A stretch of 10,798 bases of DNA from the NCBI GenBank assembly GCA_021781185.1, contig JAJXXI010000123.1, forward strand, positions 1 to 10,798. The letters run 5' to 3'. Below are positions 3,853-10,702 of the stretch, piece after piece. How positions within the stretch are numbered: the stretch's first letter is position 1; the number at the start of each line of letters is the position of its first letter. The stretch is from a bacterium. Lineage in GTDB: Bacteria > Verrucomicrobiota > Verrucomicrobiia > Limisphaerales > UBA11358. Below the pieces are notes generated by a model. It was not told where the DNA came from. It saw only the letters and a program-made list of their open reading frames with translations, and ran no database searches. The position numbers were made by a program, and so were the translations under genes.

Positions 3853-4827
3853 TTACAACCCGAACTGGTTGGCCATGAGCCCGATGACGCTCAAGGGGCC
3901 GGTGTCTTCCAAGCCGTCCGCCGCCTTGTCGAGCTTCTGCAGCGAGAGCTTGGCGTTGTCCAAAAATTCCGGACTGTTGACCAGCTTGCCAACCGAGCCC
4001 TGGCCCTGATTCACCTTCAACAAAATGGAATTCAGGTTCGTCATGGAGGACGTGGTCGCGCGGTAAAGCGTGTCATCCGTCAGCAATTTGCCAAAGGTGC
4101 CCTTGCCGGCGCGCACGTCGCTCATGACCAGTTTGGCAGAGGCAATGACCTCATTCGCCGAGGCGGCCGTGTCCTGCAAGTTGCTGACGGTCGTCAGCGC
4201 GGAGTTGTAGAGGGCTTGGTCGTAAACCAGCTTGCCGATGGTGCCCTGGCCGGCGGCGATCTGGCTGGAGACATTTTTCACGTTCGCAATGGTCGCGGTG
4301 ATGGGCCCGCTGTTTTGCTTGATGAAATCCGTGAGCGGCCCGAGCAAATTGTCAATCTTGTCACCGGTGAAACTTTTGGTGAGGTTCTGAATCCCGCCGG
4401 CGGCGTTGTCCAGCTTGGCCATGATGGCGTTCAAATCCGGCTGCTCCCGGGTCTCCAGCACCGTGCCTGCCGCCGCCTTGGGCGCATCCGGGGTGCCAAA
4501 GGAGATGGCGACAAAATTTTGCCCCATCAGACCGGTGAATTCGATGACGGCCTTGCTGTCCGTTTTCACCATGGCATCCGTGTTGAGTTTCATGGTCACA
4601 CTGACTTTGTTGTCGGCGAGGGCAATTTTTTCCACGCGCCCGATTTCGACGCCGGCCATCTTGACGCGGTCGCCCACCTTCAAGTCCTGTGCCGTGTCAA
4701 ACTGCGCGCTGACCAGGTAGCCGCGGCTGAAAATGTCGGCGCTGCCGAGGGTTTCAATAATGAGCACGGCCGCGAGCACGGTCAGGGCCACAAAAATGCC
4801 CAGCTTGGTTTCGAGTGAATTTTTCAT
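3853..4827 (-). CDS. mlaD: MCE/MlaD-family lipid-binding protein with long C-terminal extension
   Basis: This is the substrate-binding MCE subunit of an MlaEFD-type ABC lipid transporter, anchored in the inner membrane and facing the periplasm, where MCE rings form a hydrophobic channel for phospholipids. One N-terminal transmembrane helix (about 10-27) is followed by a single MCE domain (about 36-115) containing the typical LKVGDRVKMAGVEIGRV (49-65) and GLMGQNFVAI (99-108). The protein has 324 residues, against roughly 180 for E. coli MlaD. The extra C-terminal part (about 130-324) is probably helical and carries three copies of a G-[QK]-G-[TS]-x-G-K-L motif at 193-200, 241-248 and 275-282. 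The start ATG lies 16 bases after the mlaF stop and has no clear Shine-Dalgarno sequence. It is the last gene of the block, and no mlaC or mlaB follows. Confidence 0.92.
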   Translation of the reverse strand: MKNSLETKLGIFVALTVLAAVLIIETLGSADIFSRGYLVSAQFDTAQDLKVGDRVKMAGVEIGRVEKIALADNKVSVTMKLNTDAMVKTDSKAVIEFTGLMGQNFVAISFGTPDAPKAAAGTVLETREQPDLNAIMAKLDNAAGGIQNLTKSFTGDKIDNLLGPLTDFIKQNSGPITATIANVKNVSSQIAAGQGTIGKLVYDQALYNSALTTVSNLQDTAASANEVIASAKLVMSDVRAGKGTFGKLLTDDTLYRATTSSMTNLNSILLKVNQGQGSVGKLVNSPEFLDNAKLSLQKLDKAADGLEDTGPLSVIGLMANQFGL

Positions 4828-4843: not shown

Positions 4844-5602
4844 TTAAGTTTCGCGTTTGAAGTCCGCGTGCAAAAACTTTTGCACCAGCGGGTCGTTGAA
4901 GTTTTTCACCTCGTCGGGCGTGCCGATGGTCACAATCCGCCCGTCCACGATGACCGCAATGCGGTCGGCCACCCCAAAGGCGAGGTCGCGGTCGTGGGAA
5001 ACCACAAACGAGGTGACGTGCGTGCGCCGGTTGAGGTTCAAAATCTCGTTGCCGATCACGACGGAGGAAAGCGGATCCAGTTCGCTGGTCGGTTCATCAT
5101 AAAGAATCAATTGCGGCTCAATGACGAGGGCGCGGGCGATGGCGGCGCGCTTTTTCATGCCGCCGGAAAGTTCACCGGGCATTTTGTTCATCGCCTCCCT
5201 GAGGCCGACATCCTCGAGTTTTTCCGCGACGATCTGCTGGATTTCCCCGGGTGATTTCAGGCGGTGTTCCGTCAGATACAGCCCGACATTTTCGCCGACG
5301 GTCAGCGAGTTGAGCAGCGCGCCGGACTGGAACACGAGCGCCATGCGGTATTTCGCGGCGATTTCGGGCGTGGTGATGGATTCGCCGTTGATGAGAATTT
5401 CGCCGGCATCCGCCTCTTCCAGCCCGATGAGGTGCTTGAGCAGAACGCTTTTGCCGCTGCCGCTCGGCCCCATCATCACGAAGATTTCCCCGGGCCGGAC
5501 TTCAAAATCAATGCCCTTGAGCACTTCCTGGCCGTCAAAACTTTTGCGCAGGCCGCGCACCACGAGGCCGACGCTGGAGGACTGATGATTGGAATTGCTC
5601 AT
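4844..5602 (-). CDS. mlaF: MlaF-type ABC transporter ATPase
   Basis: This is the cytoplasmic ATPase that powers the MlaE permease, with MlaD, in phospholipid transport between inner and outer membrane. In its 252 residues I see Walker A GPSGSGKS (45-52), the Q-loop FQSGAL (91-96, a form common in MlaF proteins), the signature LSGGM (145-149) followed by KKRAAIARAL, Walker B LILYDE (165-170) and the H-loop histidine H203. All catalytic residues are present, so it should be active. The D-loop reads SELD (173-176), where most relatives have SGLD or SALD. The start ATG overlaps the mlaE TGA as ATGA (5599-5602), which indicates translational coupling. The mlaD gene follows after 16 bases. The gene order E-F-D differs from the F-E-D of E. 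coli. Confidence 0.95.
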   Translation of the reverse strand: MSNSNHQSSSVGLVVRGLRKSFDGQEVLKGIDFEVRPGEIFVMMGPSGSGKSVLLKHLIGLEEADAGEILINGESITTPEIAAKYRMALVFQSGALLNSLTVGENVGLYLTEHRLKSPGEIQQIVAEKLEDVGLREAMNKMPGELSGGMKKRAAIARALVIEPQLILYDEPTSELDPLSSVVIGNEILNLNRRTHVTSFVVSHDRDLAFGVADRIAVIVDGRIVTIGTPDEVKNFNDPLVQKFLHADFKRET

Positions 5603-6336
5603 TTCAGAAGGAAACGGGTGAGGATGTAGTCAAAAATGACGATGAGCACAATGGAGTTGACCACCGCCTTGGTGACCGAACGGCCAATCCCGCGCGGTCC
5701 GCCAATGGTCACCAGTCCCTGGTGGCAGGAAACCACGCCAATGATGATGGCAAAACAGAAACTTTTGAACACGCCGTTGGCCACATCCTTCAAGCCCACA
5801 ATATCCCGCAAATCGGCAAAAAAGACGCGGAACGGAATTTCCATGCGATGGTTCATATCCGCCACCACGGCTCCGCCAAACCAGCCCACCAGGACTGCGA
5901 ACACGACCAGCATCGGCAGTGCGACGGCGATGGCCAGCAACCGTGGCAGCACGAGGTAGTGGATGGGATTGATGTTCATCGTGCGCAGCGCGTCAATTTC
6001 CTGATAGACGCGCATGGAGCCGATTTCCGCCGCCATGGCGGAGCCAATGCGGCCGGCAATGAGGATGGCCATCATGACGGGGGCCAGCTCCTTGGCAATG
6101 GCAATGCCGACCACGCCGCCGACGGCGCTGGGCAGGCTGCGTTCAACGAGCACCGGTCCCGTTTGCAGGGAAATGACCGCGCCGATGAAGAAAGACAGCA
6201 CGCAGACCATCAGCAGGCTGGCATTCCCGATCTCGAAAAACTGGTCCAACACTTTTTGCCGCTGGCGCCACGCGTTGGGCAGGGCCAGCAGCGTGCGCCA
6301 GAACAACAGGACAATTTCACCGATGTTCTCAAACAT
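5599..6336 (-). CDS. mlaE: MlaE-type ABC transporter permease
   Basis: This is the integral inner-membrane permease of the MlaEFD lipid transporter. The 245-residue length is usual. An amphipathic N-terminus (1-30) precedes hydrophobic segments near 38-58, 72-95, 128-157, 190-205 and 222-240. The diagnostic MlaE/Ttg2B block is present: KELAPVMMAILIAGR (82-96) continuing into IGSAMAAEIGSMRVYQEIDAL (97-117), which contains the coupling helix that meets the ATPase. The conserved GLVTIGGPRGIG (207-218) is present near the C-terminus. The start ATG lies 17 bases after the stop of the aromatic-proline repeat protein, and the stop overlaps the mlaF start. This placement argues for cotranscription with both neighbours. 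Confidence 0.95.
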   Translation of the reverse strand: MFENIGEIVLLFWRTLLALPNAWRQRQKVLDQFFEIGNASLLMVCVLSFFIGAVISLQTGPVLVERSLPSAVGGVVGIAIAKELAPVMMAILIAGRIGSAMAAEIGSMRVYQEIDALRTMNINPIHYLVLPRLLAIAVALPMLVVFAVLVGWFGGAVVADMNHRMEIPFRVFFADLRDIVGLKDVANGVFKSFCFAIIIGVVSCHQGLVTIGGPRGIGRSVTKAVVNSIVLIVIFDYILTRFLLK

Positions 6337-6353
6337 AATGGTTCAGGCGCGGT

Positions 6354-7844
6354 TCATTTGGCGGCGGTGGTTTTCCGTGAAACAGTGACGTAAAACAGCT
6401 TCAGACACCGGTTTCCCCGGTCACATTGATACTGAAAAAGCCCGAAGAGGAGCGAGACTTTTTTGTGTTCCGGCGACCGCTCGTCCCGATACAAATTCCA
6501 CAACAACGAATGGCTGGCCGCGCCGGTGCCGGGATTGTTTTCCGCCCGCCAGAGCGACCACAGCGGCGACCAGTTGCGCTCAATGCCACGGTTGTCCGGC
6601 ACCGCCGGCTCAATCGGCGCAAACACCTGCAACCGTTCGTTGCCGTTGAAATCGCGGTGCATCGTGAAGAATGGCCACATGTCCAGCCGCCGCTTGTAAC
6701 GGCCGGTCTTGGTGTTGCGTTCCACGGTGTCCGAATATAAATAAAAAACGATGCGGGTGCGGCGGAGATCGAGTGGATCGGAATGCGTGCGCTTGAAGAC
6801 ATAAACCGGCCAGAGATACGAATCGCTCTCCAATGTGGCGTTATGCGAAAGGCTGAACAGCGGGAACACCCGCGAGGTGGTCTTGCCTTCGCCCCGGGCA
6901 AAAACCACGATCGGCCACGGTGCCTGCCATTCATGGTATTTCAATGCCCGGTTGTCAATCCAGTTGAAGAACGGCCAAATGACCGTCGTCAAATCCAGTT
7001 GCGGGGAGCGGGTGTAAACAAACAGCGGCAGGCTGGCGCGGAAGGTTTCAGGATTGGTGGTGCCCAGGCCATTGTCCTGCCGCAGATATAGCGGCCAGGC
7101 CCAAAACGACCGGTCATGGCCGCCGATCAGCGTCACATCGCCAAAGCCGTTTGTCTGCCAGGTCACCGCCTTATGCTCCCGACCGACCAGCGGCCAGACC
7201 TGCCAGCCATGCAACCCATCGCCGTGGCGAACATGCACGAAGGGATAAAGGTAGGTGTCGGTGACGACATCGCGTTTGCGCGTTTCGCTGTAAAAGGGAA
7301 ACATGATCACGAAAATCTGGTCATGGAACATCCGGTTTTTCACCGTGCCGTAAAAAGGGAAAACCGCCGTATAATCCAGATTCGTGTCGGTGGAACGCTG
7401 CCGGAAAAAAATCGGATACAAGGTCTGCCGCCGGGTGGTTGCGCCGTCAGGTTCCTGTCCGCCGGCCCCGCTGATCAGTTGGAAAAACTGCCAGCGCCAC
7501 TCCTGGCCGTAATGCAGATAGCTAAACAGCGGATATAAAAAATCATCCTCTTGTGACTCCACGGAAGAATCCCGGTCACGCGAAAAAAACGGCGGCACGG
7601 CCCAAGTCGTCTCCGCTTCCCGTTGCTGCGAATAGTAAAACGGGCCGGCCGCTTCCACGCGATAGCCCTGATCTAAAGTCAGATTGAACCGGTCAAACAG
7701 AAAGCCATAGCCCCCCGCCTCGCCGGCTTGGATTCGATTTGCGCACGACAAATAAAGAAAAATGCCCGCCAGCGGAAGAACGATGGCCGCCAGAGCCGAA
7801 AAAAAACCTTTGTGGTTCGTTATCGTTATTTTTTGTCTATCCAT
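6354..7844 (-). CDS. Unrecognised envelope protein with about 22 aromatic-proline repeats
   Basis: I do not recognise this 496-residue protein. After a short charged N-terminus there is one hydrophobic stretch (about 13-34), either a signal peptide or an anchor; Cys34 follows LYLS, a poor lipobox, so a lipoprotein is possible but unproven. The rest is tiled by short hydrophobic motifs of the type [WFYL]-P-[LFIV]-[FYV]: residues 104 (YPLFSY), 143 (YPIFF), 162, 182, 200, 217, 250, 272, 290, 310, 327, 345, 390 and 426, with weaker copies between them. Mean spacing is about 19 residues, and polar, charged turns lie between. This suggests repeated beta hairpins, as in a beta-barrel, propeller or solenoid, exposed to the periplasm or outer membrane. 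It lies 17 bases upstream of mlaE and downstream of the RND gene, so a role in envelope lipid traffic is inferred. The start ATG has no clear Shine-Dalgarno sequence. Confidence 0.85.
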   Translation of the reverse strand: MDRQKITITNHKGFFSALAAIVLPLAGIFLYLSCANRIQAGEAGGYGFLFDRFNLTLDQGYRVEAAGPFYYSQQREAETTWAVPPFFSRDRDSSVESQEDDFLYPLFSYLHYGQEWRWQFFQLISGAGGQEPDGATTRRQTLYPIFFRQRSTDTNLDYTAVFPFYGTVKNRMFHDQIFVIMFPFYSETRKRDVVTDTYLYPFVHVRHGDGLHGWQVWPLVGREHKAVTWQTNGFGDVTLIGGHDRSFWAWPLYLRQDNGLGTTNPETFRASLPLFVYTRSPQLDLTTVIWPFFNWIDNRALKYHEWQAPWPIVVFARGEGKTTSRVFPLFSLSHNATLESDSYLWPVYVFKRTHSDPLDLRRTRIVFYLYSDTVERNTKTGRYKRRLDMWPFFTMHRDFNGNERLQVFAPIEPAVPDNRGIERNWSPLWSLWRAENNPGTGAASHSLLWNLYRDERSPEHKKVSLLFGLFQYQCDRGNRCLKLFYVTVSRKTTAAK

Positions 7845-7930: not shown

Positions 7931-10702
7931 TTACCTCGGTTCCTCCTGACCCGGTGTTGGCGATGCGTTGCTGACACTGGGTTTTTTAACCAGCGGACGC
8001 CAGCGACCAATCAAATTCAACAGTGCCGGCAAGAAAGTCAGGCCCGCAACCATGCATAAAGCGATGCCGCCAGACATGATGATGCCCAGGCTGTGAATGC
8101 CCTGATGCTTCGCGAGAATGAGACTGCCGAATCCCGCAATGGCCGTCAATCCCGACACCAACACCGCTTTTCCCGTGCTGCGTGCCAGAATGCCCGGCGT
8201 GCGCTCCTCCGCGTATCGGTTCAGGATGTGAATCCCGTTCGTCACACCGATGCCGATGACCAGCGGCAGGGTCATGATGTTCGCGGGATTGAACGGCACC
8301 TTTTGCCAGCCCATCAAACCCAGCAACCATAAAGTTCCAATGCCCACCGGAACCAACGCCAAAATGGCTGCGGCGAGACTGCGGAAATGGAAAAACACCA
8401 TCACGGCGATGGCGATCAGCGAATACCACGCCGCCGTCATGTAACTATTCTTGAGCAGGGTCGTGTATTGCAGCAGTTGCACCGGCGTGCCGGTGATGAT
8501 CGGCTGGTCGGTATCCTGCGGGTCCAGCGCCCGCCGTAACGTGTCCACAAATTCCTTTTGGTTGTCGTGCTGCCAGACATTTTTCTTCGGATAAACCTGC
8601 AGCAAAAATTTCCCCGTCACCCCCACAAACCGGTCGCGCAGGGCGGACGGCAGATCTTCGATCCGCAGCGGCGCGTGATCGTCCTGCCGTTGCAGCGTTT
8701 CAAAGGTCACGCGTAAATCGTCAAAGAGCGCCTGTTGATATTCCGCCAGCTTGTCCGCGTGTTCCTCCATCGCCGTGCTGTCGCCAGCCAACATCGCCAG
8801 CCGCAGGTCCAGCACGGATGTTTGCAGCGTGCCGAGTTCACGGGCAAGGGCGGGATCATCCTTGCCTACCTCGTCCCGGGCCGCGCCCAGATAGCCGGAA
8901 AAGGAATACAGCGTGCGGCTCAAGCCATAAATATCCACTGGTCGCATGTCGGGCGCGCCAAAGGTCAGCGGCTTGACCTCCGCCTTGATTTGGGAAATCA
9001 GCGCCAGCTTTTGATTCGGGTTCTGGTGCAAATATCCGGCAATGGATTCCACGTCGGCCACCACGTTGGTCAGCGTGTTGATTTTTGCCTCCAGCCTGAC
9101 CGCCTCGTCCAGATTGGTCGCCACCACGGCGCAATACAGCACCGATTTGTCGGCGGAATTAATCAACTTCTGTTCATACACCACCGCCGGCAATCCCTTG
9201 CTCTGCATGTTCAGCAGGTCATAGTCGAAATAAACCTTTTTGGCCTGCCAGCCCGCCAACAGGCAGGTCACCACAATCACCGCCGTCACCAGCACCGGTC
9301 GCTGCAGCCAGTATTGCTCAATCCGCGCGCGTTTTTCCTCAAAATGCATCTGGTGATCAATCACATTCTGTTTGCCGCGCAACAGCATCACCGGCAGCAG
9401 GGTCAGCATGGGCACCAGACAGACCAGTAATCCGCCGCCGCAAATGACGCCCATTTCCTGAATGCCCTTGAAATGCGTGAAGGCCATCGCCACAAATGCC
9501 CCCGATGTGGTCAGCGCCCCGACGATAATCCCCTGGCCGGTGAACATCATGGCCTTCATCATCGCCTCCTGCGCGGATTTGCCGTGGTGCAATTCCTCCT
9601 CGTAGCGCGTGATGAGATGCACGCCGAAATCAATGGCCAGGCCAATCAGCATCGGCAGAAACGTGATGGTCAGGATGTTGAGATGGCCGATGGTCAACGT
9701 CGCAAACGCGAACGTGTAGGCCAGGCCAAACAGCAGGCAGATCGTTGCCTTGATGGGCCGTCCGGTTTCGTTGTAGCCGTAGATGAAGATGAGCGCGCAC
9801 AACACCAGCGCCACAATGCTCGCGAGGGTCGTGTCCTTTTGGGACTGCTCCATTTCATCGTGATCCAAAACCGGTTCGCCCGTCAGGCCGACATTGACGC
9901 CGGGCACCTCCAGCTTCGTTTCATTCATCAGGGTGCGGATGCGTTCAATGGCGTCATCGCTCAGGTCATCGCTGGGCGCATGGGCGGTGACGAGAAAAAT
10001 TTTTCCCTTGTCGAAGGTGATGTAAGTCGCCGCCGCCGCTTCGTTGCCAGGATCAAACAGGGCGGTCACACCCGGCGAGGGCGGCGTGCCGGAACGGGCC
10101 AGACTTTCGGTGGCCTGCTGCAAGATCCGGTTCAGTGCCGGCAACGACTGGAGCAGGGCGTCGTTCTGCTCATTTTCCTCGCGTTTTGCGCTGCTGAACT
10201 GGCGGTTCACCAACTCAAAGAAAGAGTCCAGATTGGTGGTCTGCGTGAATTTCTGGATGAACGGCAGATCACTCTTCAGCGTGTCCCGCAGCCCCACCAG
10301 ATCCGGCTCCGGCACGAACAACAGGGCTTTGTTGCCCATCATCGCCAGGTCGCCTTTGTAGAAGACGTCTTCAAACAGGTTGGTTTCCGCCTCCAGCTTG
10401 GCCCCCAGCCGTTCCACAAACTGGCGGTTTTTCTCGACATTGTCGCTTTCCACCACCACCACCAGATCGTCCTGCTGGGGAAACTCCTTCTCATATTCGA
10501 GGTAGTTGTGGTGGTAACGATGGTTGCCGCCCACGAGATCGTCCCGCGAGGTGTTAAACTGGAGATACTTGACCGTAACCGCGATGCAGAGGAAAAACAG
10601 GCCGATCTGCGGCCAGAAAAACCAGCCCGGCCGGCGGATCACCGCCGCGGTAAGTTTGCCCAGCAACCGCGCCAGAAAACTGTCTGCGCTCAACGCTTTC
10701 AT
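7931..10702 (-). CDS. HpnN-like MMPL/RND family transporter
   Basis: This is a 923-residue RND-superfamily exporter of the MMPL group, built as a tandem duplication. Each half has one transmembrane helix, a large periplasmic domain, then five helices. The first half has TM1 (about 30-48), a periplasmic domain (50-290) and TM2-6 (292-311, 318-338, 341-362, 390-410, 418-440). The second has TM7 (468-486), a periplasmic domain (490-755) and TM8-12 (758-900). The early YLEYEKEFPQQDDLVVVVE (68-86) and the helix motif GLAIDFGVH (354-362) resemble HpnN, the inner-membrane transporter of hopanoids, and related lipid exporters. The subfamily and substrate remain inference. In the matching helix of the second half the motif reads GIGVTNGIH (817-825), with Thr where relatives usually have Asp. 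The ATG start lies 6 bases after the YbjQ-like stop, so cotranscription is likely. No hopanoid synthesis gene is in the window. Confidence 0.88.
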   Translation of the reverse strand: MKALSADSFLARLLGKLTAAVIRRPGWFFWPQIGLFFLCIAVTVKYLQFNTSRDDLVGGNHRYHHNYLEYEKEFPQQDDLVVVVESDNVEKNRQFVERLGAKLEAETNLFEDVFYKGDLAMMGNKALLFVPEPDLVGLRDTLKSDLPFIQKFTQTTNLDSFFELVNRQFSSAKREENEQNDALLQSLPALNRILQQATESLARSGTPPSPGVTALFDPGNEAAAATYITFDKGKIFLVTAHAPSDDLSDDAIERIRTLMNETKLEVPGVNVGLTGEPVLDHDEMEQSQKDTTLASIVALVLCALIFIYGYNETGRPIKATICLLFGLAYTFAFATLTIGHLNILTITFLPMLIGLAIDFGVHLITRYEEELHHGKSAQEAMMKAMMFTGQGIIVGALTTSGAFVAMAFTHFKGIQEMGVICGGGLLVCLVPMLTLLPVMLLRGKQNVIDHQMHFEEKRARIEQYWLQRPVLVTAVIVVTCLLAGWQAKKVYFDYDLLNMQSKGLPAVVYEQKLINSADKSVLYCAVVATNLDEAVRLEAKINTLTNVVADVESIAGYLHQNPNQKLALISQIKAEVKPLTFGAPDMRPVDIYGLSRTLYSFSGYLGAARDEVGKDDPALARELGTLQTSVLDLRLAMLAGDSTAMEEHADKLAEYQQALFDDLRVTFETLQRQDDHAPLRIEDLPSALRDRFVGVTGKFLLQVYPKKNVWQHDNQKEFVDTLRRALDPQDTDQPIITGTPVQLLQYTTLLKNSYMTAAWYSLIAIAVMVFFHFRSLAAAILALVPVGIGTLWLLGLMGWQKVPFNPANIMTLPLVIGIGVTNGIHILNRYAEERTPGILARSTGKAVLVSGLTAIAGFGSLILAKHQGIHSLGIIMSGGIALCMVAGLTFLPALLNLIGRWRPLVKKPSVSNASPTPGQEEPR

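Follow-up and report, generated by a model that had tools for sequence, protein, structure and literature searches.

An exported aromatic-proline repeat protein encoded with mlaEFD is a candidate component of an MCE lipid transporter in Verrucomicrobiota

Which protein serves as the outer partner of an MlaEFD-type (MCE) lipid ABC transporter when the usual carriers are not found? This question is raised by a 10,798-nucleotide stretch of verrucomicrobial DNA (contig JAJXXI010000123.1; the whole stretch is called the window below, and its genome G000). On its minus strand lies a run of genes for an HpnN-like RND transporter, an exported aromatic-proline repeat protein (hereafter REP, encoded by the open reading frame (ORF) at 6354-7844), MlaE, MlaF and MlaD. 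No match to MlaC (PF05494) or MlaA (PF04333) was found in this genome, whose completeness is 74.6%. The original prediction had proposed that the repeat protein replaces or supplements MlaC/MlaA, or assists the RND pump. Here, we found that REP is a real, unnamed and widely conserved candidate component of the MCE lipid transporter. The transporter is of a known kind, and its outer partner REP is new.

To estimate the distribution of REP, a profile made from an alignment of 79 proteins was searched against 194 genomes, all within the phylum Verrucomicrobiota, and the statements on distribution refer to this phylum only. The search scored at most eight candidates per genome, and REP could escape in genomes with more. 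At E values up to 1e-3, 112 of the 194 genomes were matched, and 86 were counted as REP proper (E below 1e-60). Among the other 26, one (G185) holds a fragment of REP where a contig ends, and the rest gave weak matches to ORFs of other kinds; the seven weak matches inspected (G191, G083, G103, G188, G175, G002, and G058) all carry the repeat motif. REP was present in all 49 genomes of the window's family, which belong to a single genus. The nearest named REP loci come from Verrucomicrobia subdivision 3 or Limisphaerales metagenome-assembled genomes, apart from two that are less precisely named, and outside its own clade the identity to the window protein is about 20-33%.

The REP gene is closely tied to mlaE. 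In the window, the two genes are 17 bases apart (6337-6353), as originally reported, and 74 of the 86 REP genomes have REP immediately upstream of mlaE, at a median distance of 104 nucleotides (linkage being defined as an mlaE start less than 700 nucleotides downstream on the same strand, measured profile to profile). The 12 genomes in which REP is unlinked are G012, G065, G084, G090, G104, G107, G114, G118, G129, G136, G171, and G183. Adjacency was also seen in 11 of 12 named loci, and in the exception (L011), where only 0.6 kb of contig remains, mlaE was not present. The genes upstream of REP mostly differ between loci (10 proteins from seven loci scanned): they encode a phosphoglucomutase family protein (two loci), an FtsX/MacB permease, threonine synthase, a metallo-beta-lactamase fold, CofD, a carbamoyltransferase, or proteins with no match. 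Because the REP-mlaE linkage is steady and the upstream genes vary, the conserved unit is REP-mlaE-mlaF-mlaD. One locus (L055) carries a second mlaE-mlaF-mlaD set a few kb away from its REP-mlaEFD operon.

The co-occurrence of these proteins follows a clear pattern. MlaE, MlaC, and MlaA were found in 178, 23, and 73 of the 194 genomes, respectively. MlaE was present in 86 of 86 REP genomes, and REP without MlaE was never found. Meanwhile, REP is strongly anti-correlated with MlaA (both in 8 genomes, REP only in 78, MlaA only in 65, neither in 43; Fisher's P = 5e-14) and more weakly with MlaC (both in 5, REP only in 81, MlaC only in 18, neither in 90; P = 0.025), both P values ignoring the kinship among genomes. 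The split also occurs within families. For instance, 15 genomes of family f5 have REP without MlaA and three have MlaA and MlaC without REP, one of the family's REP genomes (G155) having a weak MlaC match; in family f11 the same split is one versus two. Where REP and MlaA are both present, MlaC-MlaA stands next to a second mlaE (G101 and G177) or in a stretch that contains another RND-type gene and no mlaE (G059 and G168), and in four genomes of family f20 MlaA lies inside ORFs of 684-808 amino acids. Thus, REP and MlaC/A sit in different loci even there. Two loci (L158 and L159) have MlaA-MlaC in a stretch with an RND-type transporter gene instead of mlaE, in genomes that also carry REP-mlaEFD. 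Several genomes with no MlaC match (G002, G006, G028, and others) have an MlaA domain within frames mostly of 600-900 amino acids, which suggests an MlaA fusion.

In the phylogenetic tree of MlaE, the MlaC/A-linked sequences formed a separate clade (11 rows from nine genomes, support 98/93), and all nine rows from unlinked REP genomes fell among REP-linked MlaEs. The REP-linked MlaEs did not form one clade; they made up two strongly supported groups, one of 31 rows and one of 53 rows inside a group of 64. The node uniting the second group with REP-less MlaEs was weakly supported (87/24), in a part of the tree where long branches were flagged.

Furthermore, REP is paired with a particular kind of MlaD. 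The window MlaD (3853..4827, minus strand; PF02470, 9e-20, 71 bits) is a long form of 324 amino acids with one MCE domain and, by length class and consensus, a GTxGKL-type extension. Measured from the profile start, REP-linked MlaDs have a median length of 321 amino acids (range 231-361; 74 loci, some genomes counted twice), versus 140-169 for the MlaC/A-linked ones (eight loci). MlaDs with neither REP nor MlaC/A are at least 238 amino acids long; length alone is therefore no marker of REP. Beyond the MCE domain, the window MlaD and 74 REP-linked MlaDs carry GTLGKL-type repeats and then a conserved C-terminal hydrophobic tail, for example RETSPITTFSSIFFGAF, and in the window's class DTGPLSVIGIMANQFGL. 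In the window, this tail comprises the last 15 residues (3856..3900, minus strand), stands at the same place as in the REP-linked MlaDs, and may be a point of contact with REP or the outer membrane. Among the 74 linked REP genomes, MlaD ends were read in 63, in G115, and in the window; in the other nine the DNA was too short.

A profile of the tailed MlaD was then run on 120 of the 194 genomes, namely 108 classed as lacking REP and the 12 in which it is unlinked. In 11 of these 12, the MlaD encoded elsewhere keeps the tail or a variant of it; in G090 none was found with this profile. In the 108 REP-less genomes, the MlaD-type match stops before the tail in 85, is lacking in 19, and includes a tail in four, absence being judged mostly from the stop of the profile match. 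Among these four, G185 is the genome whose REP gene is incomplete at the edge of a contig; in the other three (G130, G086, and G133) the contig ends right beside the position expected for REP. The link between REP and the tailed MlaD does not depend on gene adjacency. Five MlaEFD-type loci without REP (L130, L131, L133, L136, and L139) have other MlaD tails (such as LRKKGILFY or LRDYGILRYR), perhaps marking another partner.

The REP protein itself is distinctive. Its ORF (6354..7844, minus strand) starts with ATG and encodes 496 amino acids, and the plus strand across the same positions is interrupted by stops. Searches of Pfam (E up to 1), NCBIfam, and PDB sequences with REP gave no match, the MlaA and MlaC profiles included, in line with the earlier remark that no named family was known for it. 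Homologues are mostly 430-580 amino acids long. The aromatic-proline repeat of roughly 19 residues was fully upheld. The periodogram of hydrophobic and proline residues peaks at 19.0 residues with a power of 7.3 (the largest of 1000 shuffles reached 2.8, so none was as strong), and residues 40-496 contain 12 copies of the motif [WFY]P[LFIV][FYVL], whereas 5000 shuffles gave 0.32 on average and never more than 3. The gaps between the 17 repeat prolines are 17, 20, 39, 19, 20, 18, 17, 33, 22, 18, 20, 17, 18, 45, 19, and 17 residues, three of them being about double length. Weaker copies of the motif had been predicted near residues 122, 237, 367, and 408. In the 79-row alignment, proline occurs at position 367 in 47 rows and at 410 in 26 rows, and no conserved prolines were seen near 122 and 237, so that only the last two copies stood.

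Twelve of the 13 invariant columns of this alignment are a repeat proline or the tryptophan before it, and the thirteenth is a glycine. The average unit (16 repeats in 79 rows) begins with [L/V][W/F]P[L/F][Y/F/W][G/S] and continues with an Arg-rich polar strand, a short turn, and a second polar strand, in which an aromatic residue stands four residues ahead of the next repeat proline in 39% of cells. Thus, the hydrophobic residues lie on one edge of a ribbon, at the WPLF turns, and the polar ones on the other. These two edges may face different surroundings.

The original prediction also inferred export from an N-terminal hydrophobic segment, and the data agree with it. Residues 14-37 (7734..7805, minus strand) form a helix in the AlphaFold2 model, either a signal peptide or a signal anchor, and the homologues have signal-peptide-like N-termini. 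A loose lipobox pattern did not match the window REP; it matches five of 82 REP N-termini, of which three are convincing by eye.

AlphaFold2 predicts a beta-rich repeat fold for REP, as had been expected, with a predicted local distance difference test (pLDDT) score of 91.8, and of 92.9 when the N-terminal half is modelled alone. The repeat domain (residues 51-491; 6372..7694, minus strand) contains 45 short strands in the model, mostly of six residues and two per repeat. Therefore, the "about 22 strands" of the original prediction are properly about 22 hairpins: the number of units was right, and the unit is a WPLF-type beta-hairpin. A short helical break at residues 419-429 (6558..6590, minus strand) coincides in the model and the alignment with a conserved stretch (consensus ERNWxPLW). 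Of the outcomes suggested beforehand for fold prediction, namely a closed barrel, propeller, or solenoid, none was recognised. The nearest folds among the matches listed are open single-layer beta-meanders (TCP10, MORN, and OspA), all local and weak for a repeat. Their identity to REP is 2-10%, their Z values fall within the range called ambiguous for repeats, and the WPLF motif and invariant prolines set REP apart from MORN, TCP10/G-box, and OspA meanders; REP has no MORN match in Pfam and carries an invariant WPL-type motif in its place. AsmA, TamB, and YhdP gave no Pfam match for REP and were absent among the fold matches listed. Beyond the predicted local fold, the overall shape of REP is something we infer.

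REP-type repeats also occur in giant proteins of 435 to about 1400 amino acids (loci L103-L116, e.g., L105:779-3265 on the plus strand and L106:1978-5913 on the minus strand; profile E 8e-42 to 7e-9), and none of the eight scanned had a Pfam family above its cut-off. They share the repeat with REP, but they are mostly lipobox-bearing, have no obvious link to mla genes, and are found also in genomes without REP.

What, then, may REP do? We proposed that REP is a dedicated partner of the MlaEFD-type transporter on the periplasmic or outer-membrane side that does the job of MlaC/MlaA, and we consider this somewhat better than an even prospect. REP plausibly fills the place of the outer partner because it is exported, operon-linked, always accompanied by MlaE, avoids MlaA, and is paired with a long tailed MlaD. 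It apparently stands in for the usual carrier proteins of the lipid pump. Thus, the suggestion that the protein replaces or supplements MlaC/MlaA has gained support, strong from MlaA and weaker from MlaC, and from the tailed MlaD. None of the outcomes named at the outset as contrary to it occurred: synteny with mlaE is conserved, a beta repeat is predicted, and no match to an unrelated known family appeared.

In the proposed mechanism, Sec would export REP, which would fold in the periplasm into a long single-layer ribbon of beta-hairpins with one aromatic edge (the WPLF turns) and one polar, Arg-rich edge (also turns). MlaE (5599..6336, minus strand; PF02405, 9e-71, 238 bits) and the adjacent MlaF-type ATPase (4844..5602, minus strand; PF00005, 2e-32, 113 bits; 171 bits with the MlaF equivalog, below its cut-off of 441) would power the movement of lipids at the inner membrane. 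In its long form, MlaD would span part of the periplasm, and its hydrophobic tail would meet REP and/or the outer membrane. REP would take up or pass on lipids, or tether the MlaD needle to the outer membrane, and MlaC and MlaA would therefore not be needed. In this scheme we infer lipid binding by REP, its cellular location, its contact with MlaD, and the direction of transport. The link between REP and the tailed MlaD may still be due to shared ancestry of a single type of transporter.

A bolder version is less probable, and we offer it tentatively. REP would be the first known member of a new class of lipid conduits that span the periplasm: a single-layer ribbon of about 45 short strands, on the order of 200 Å if extended, along whose aromatic WPLF edge lipid would travel between an MlaD hexamer, at its hydrophobic tails, and the outer membrane. 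Such a conduit would be shuttle-free, distinct from MlaC, from the LetB/PqiB tunnels and from TamB-like grooves, and standard in much of the phylum.

Alternatively, REP might act on MlaD alone, as a scaffold or assembly collar, and have no contact with lipid. In PDB structures, ribbons built of repeats in a single layer frequently act as scaffolds that bind proteins, and REP does co-occur with the MlaD tail. A precedent is PqiC, an octameric outer-membrane lipoprotein of about 187 residues described as a collar that would anchor PqiB at its C-terminus (PMC10897342). PqiABC resembles the proposed REP system in having an operon-encoded outer partner for the C-terminus of an MCE needle. PqiC is small, whereas REP homologues are large repeat proteins of which few look lipidated. 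However, the aromatic edge of REP is strongly conserved for a pure scaffold, and we hold this explanation to be unlikely.

That REP is a porin- or LptD-like beta-barrel in the outer membrane, serving as the passage for lipids that MlaD delivers or collects, seems to us still less probable. The REP strands are short for it, and the best fold matches are open sheets. The query-normalised template modelling scores of the best 50 Foldseek rows do not exceed 0.17 for whole REP and 0.24 for its N-terminal half. Among the matches listed, LptD superposes poorly, with root-mean-square deviations of 12-27 over 123-242 residues and one exception of 3.0 over 76. In addition, the hydrophobic residues are gathered at the WPLF turns and do not alternate along the strands.

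It is very unlikely that REP has a general role in the envelope, was simply inherited with the operon, and is functionally unconnected to MlaEFD. The giant lipoproteins elsewhere in phylum genomes and the 12 unlinked REP genomes speak for it, but 11 of these 12 keep the tailed MlaD and MlaE accompanies REP everywhere. Finally, the suggestion that REP serves the HpnN-like RND lipid pump (7931..10702, minus strand; 549 bits with TIGR03480, whose cut-off is 752), with the mlaE neighbourhood incidental, fell away as highly improbable, since this gene adjoins REP in all 13 loci (L001-L013) of the clade to which the window belongs but no RND match was found beside REP outside them (at least 3 kb of upstream DNA was covered in 61 of the 74 linked genomes, G000 included), and mlaE is the widespread neighbour. 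The RND transporter probably stands outside the conserved REP system. At the other end of the window, a large plus-strand ORF (28-1890; 620 amino acids, possibly truncated by the window start) has no Pfam match better than E 0.1.

The comparison with known systems places REP further. MlaE, MlaF, and the single-MCE MlaD of the window are homologous to those of Escherichia coli Mla (MlaFEDB-MlaC-MlaA). In contrast to E. coli, the window encodes REP as an additional protein and a long MlaD with a tail, and in its genome (about 75% complete) MlaC and MlaA were not found. According to a 2023 survey, the minimal MlaEFD of Veillonella parvula lacks MlaA/MlaC, has an elongated MlaD with a fused outer-membrane barrel, thought to bridge the envelope, and is followed by tolC-tamB (PMC10665443). 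The REP system shares the elongated MlaD with it; however, the barrel of Veillonella is fused to MlaD (PMC10665443), whereas here MlaD ends in a short tail, and the beta-repeat protein has its own gene ahead of mlaE. According to the same survey, short MlaD is restricted to Proteobacteria (PMC10665443), whereas in eight loci of the phylum (L134, L140, L141, L142, L155, L157, L160, and L161) MlaC and MlaA accompany a short MlaD, of 140-169 amino acids counted from the profile start. The survey also proposes that MlaEFD is the ancestral core of inter-membrane lipid traffic and MlaABC a later addition, and suggests the MlaD barrel as a substitute for the latter (PMC10665443). For MlaDs without a barrel, small barrels formed from multimers, or unidentified proteins that assist the folding of barrels, are considered there (PMC10665443).

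The survey reports the MlaD barrel to be absent from the PVC (Planctomycetes-Verrucomicrobia-Chlamydiae) and FCB (Fibrobacteres-Chlorobi-Bacteroidetes) bacteria (PMC10665443). REP is a specific, conserved and readily cloned candidate for the outer-membrane-facing partner in these bacteria. The REP family, a repeat family so far unnamed, together with the paired MlaD tail motif, provides a means of recognising the system.
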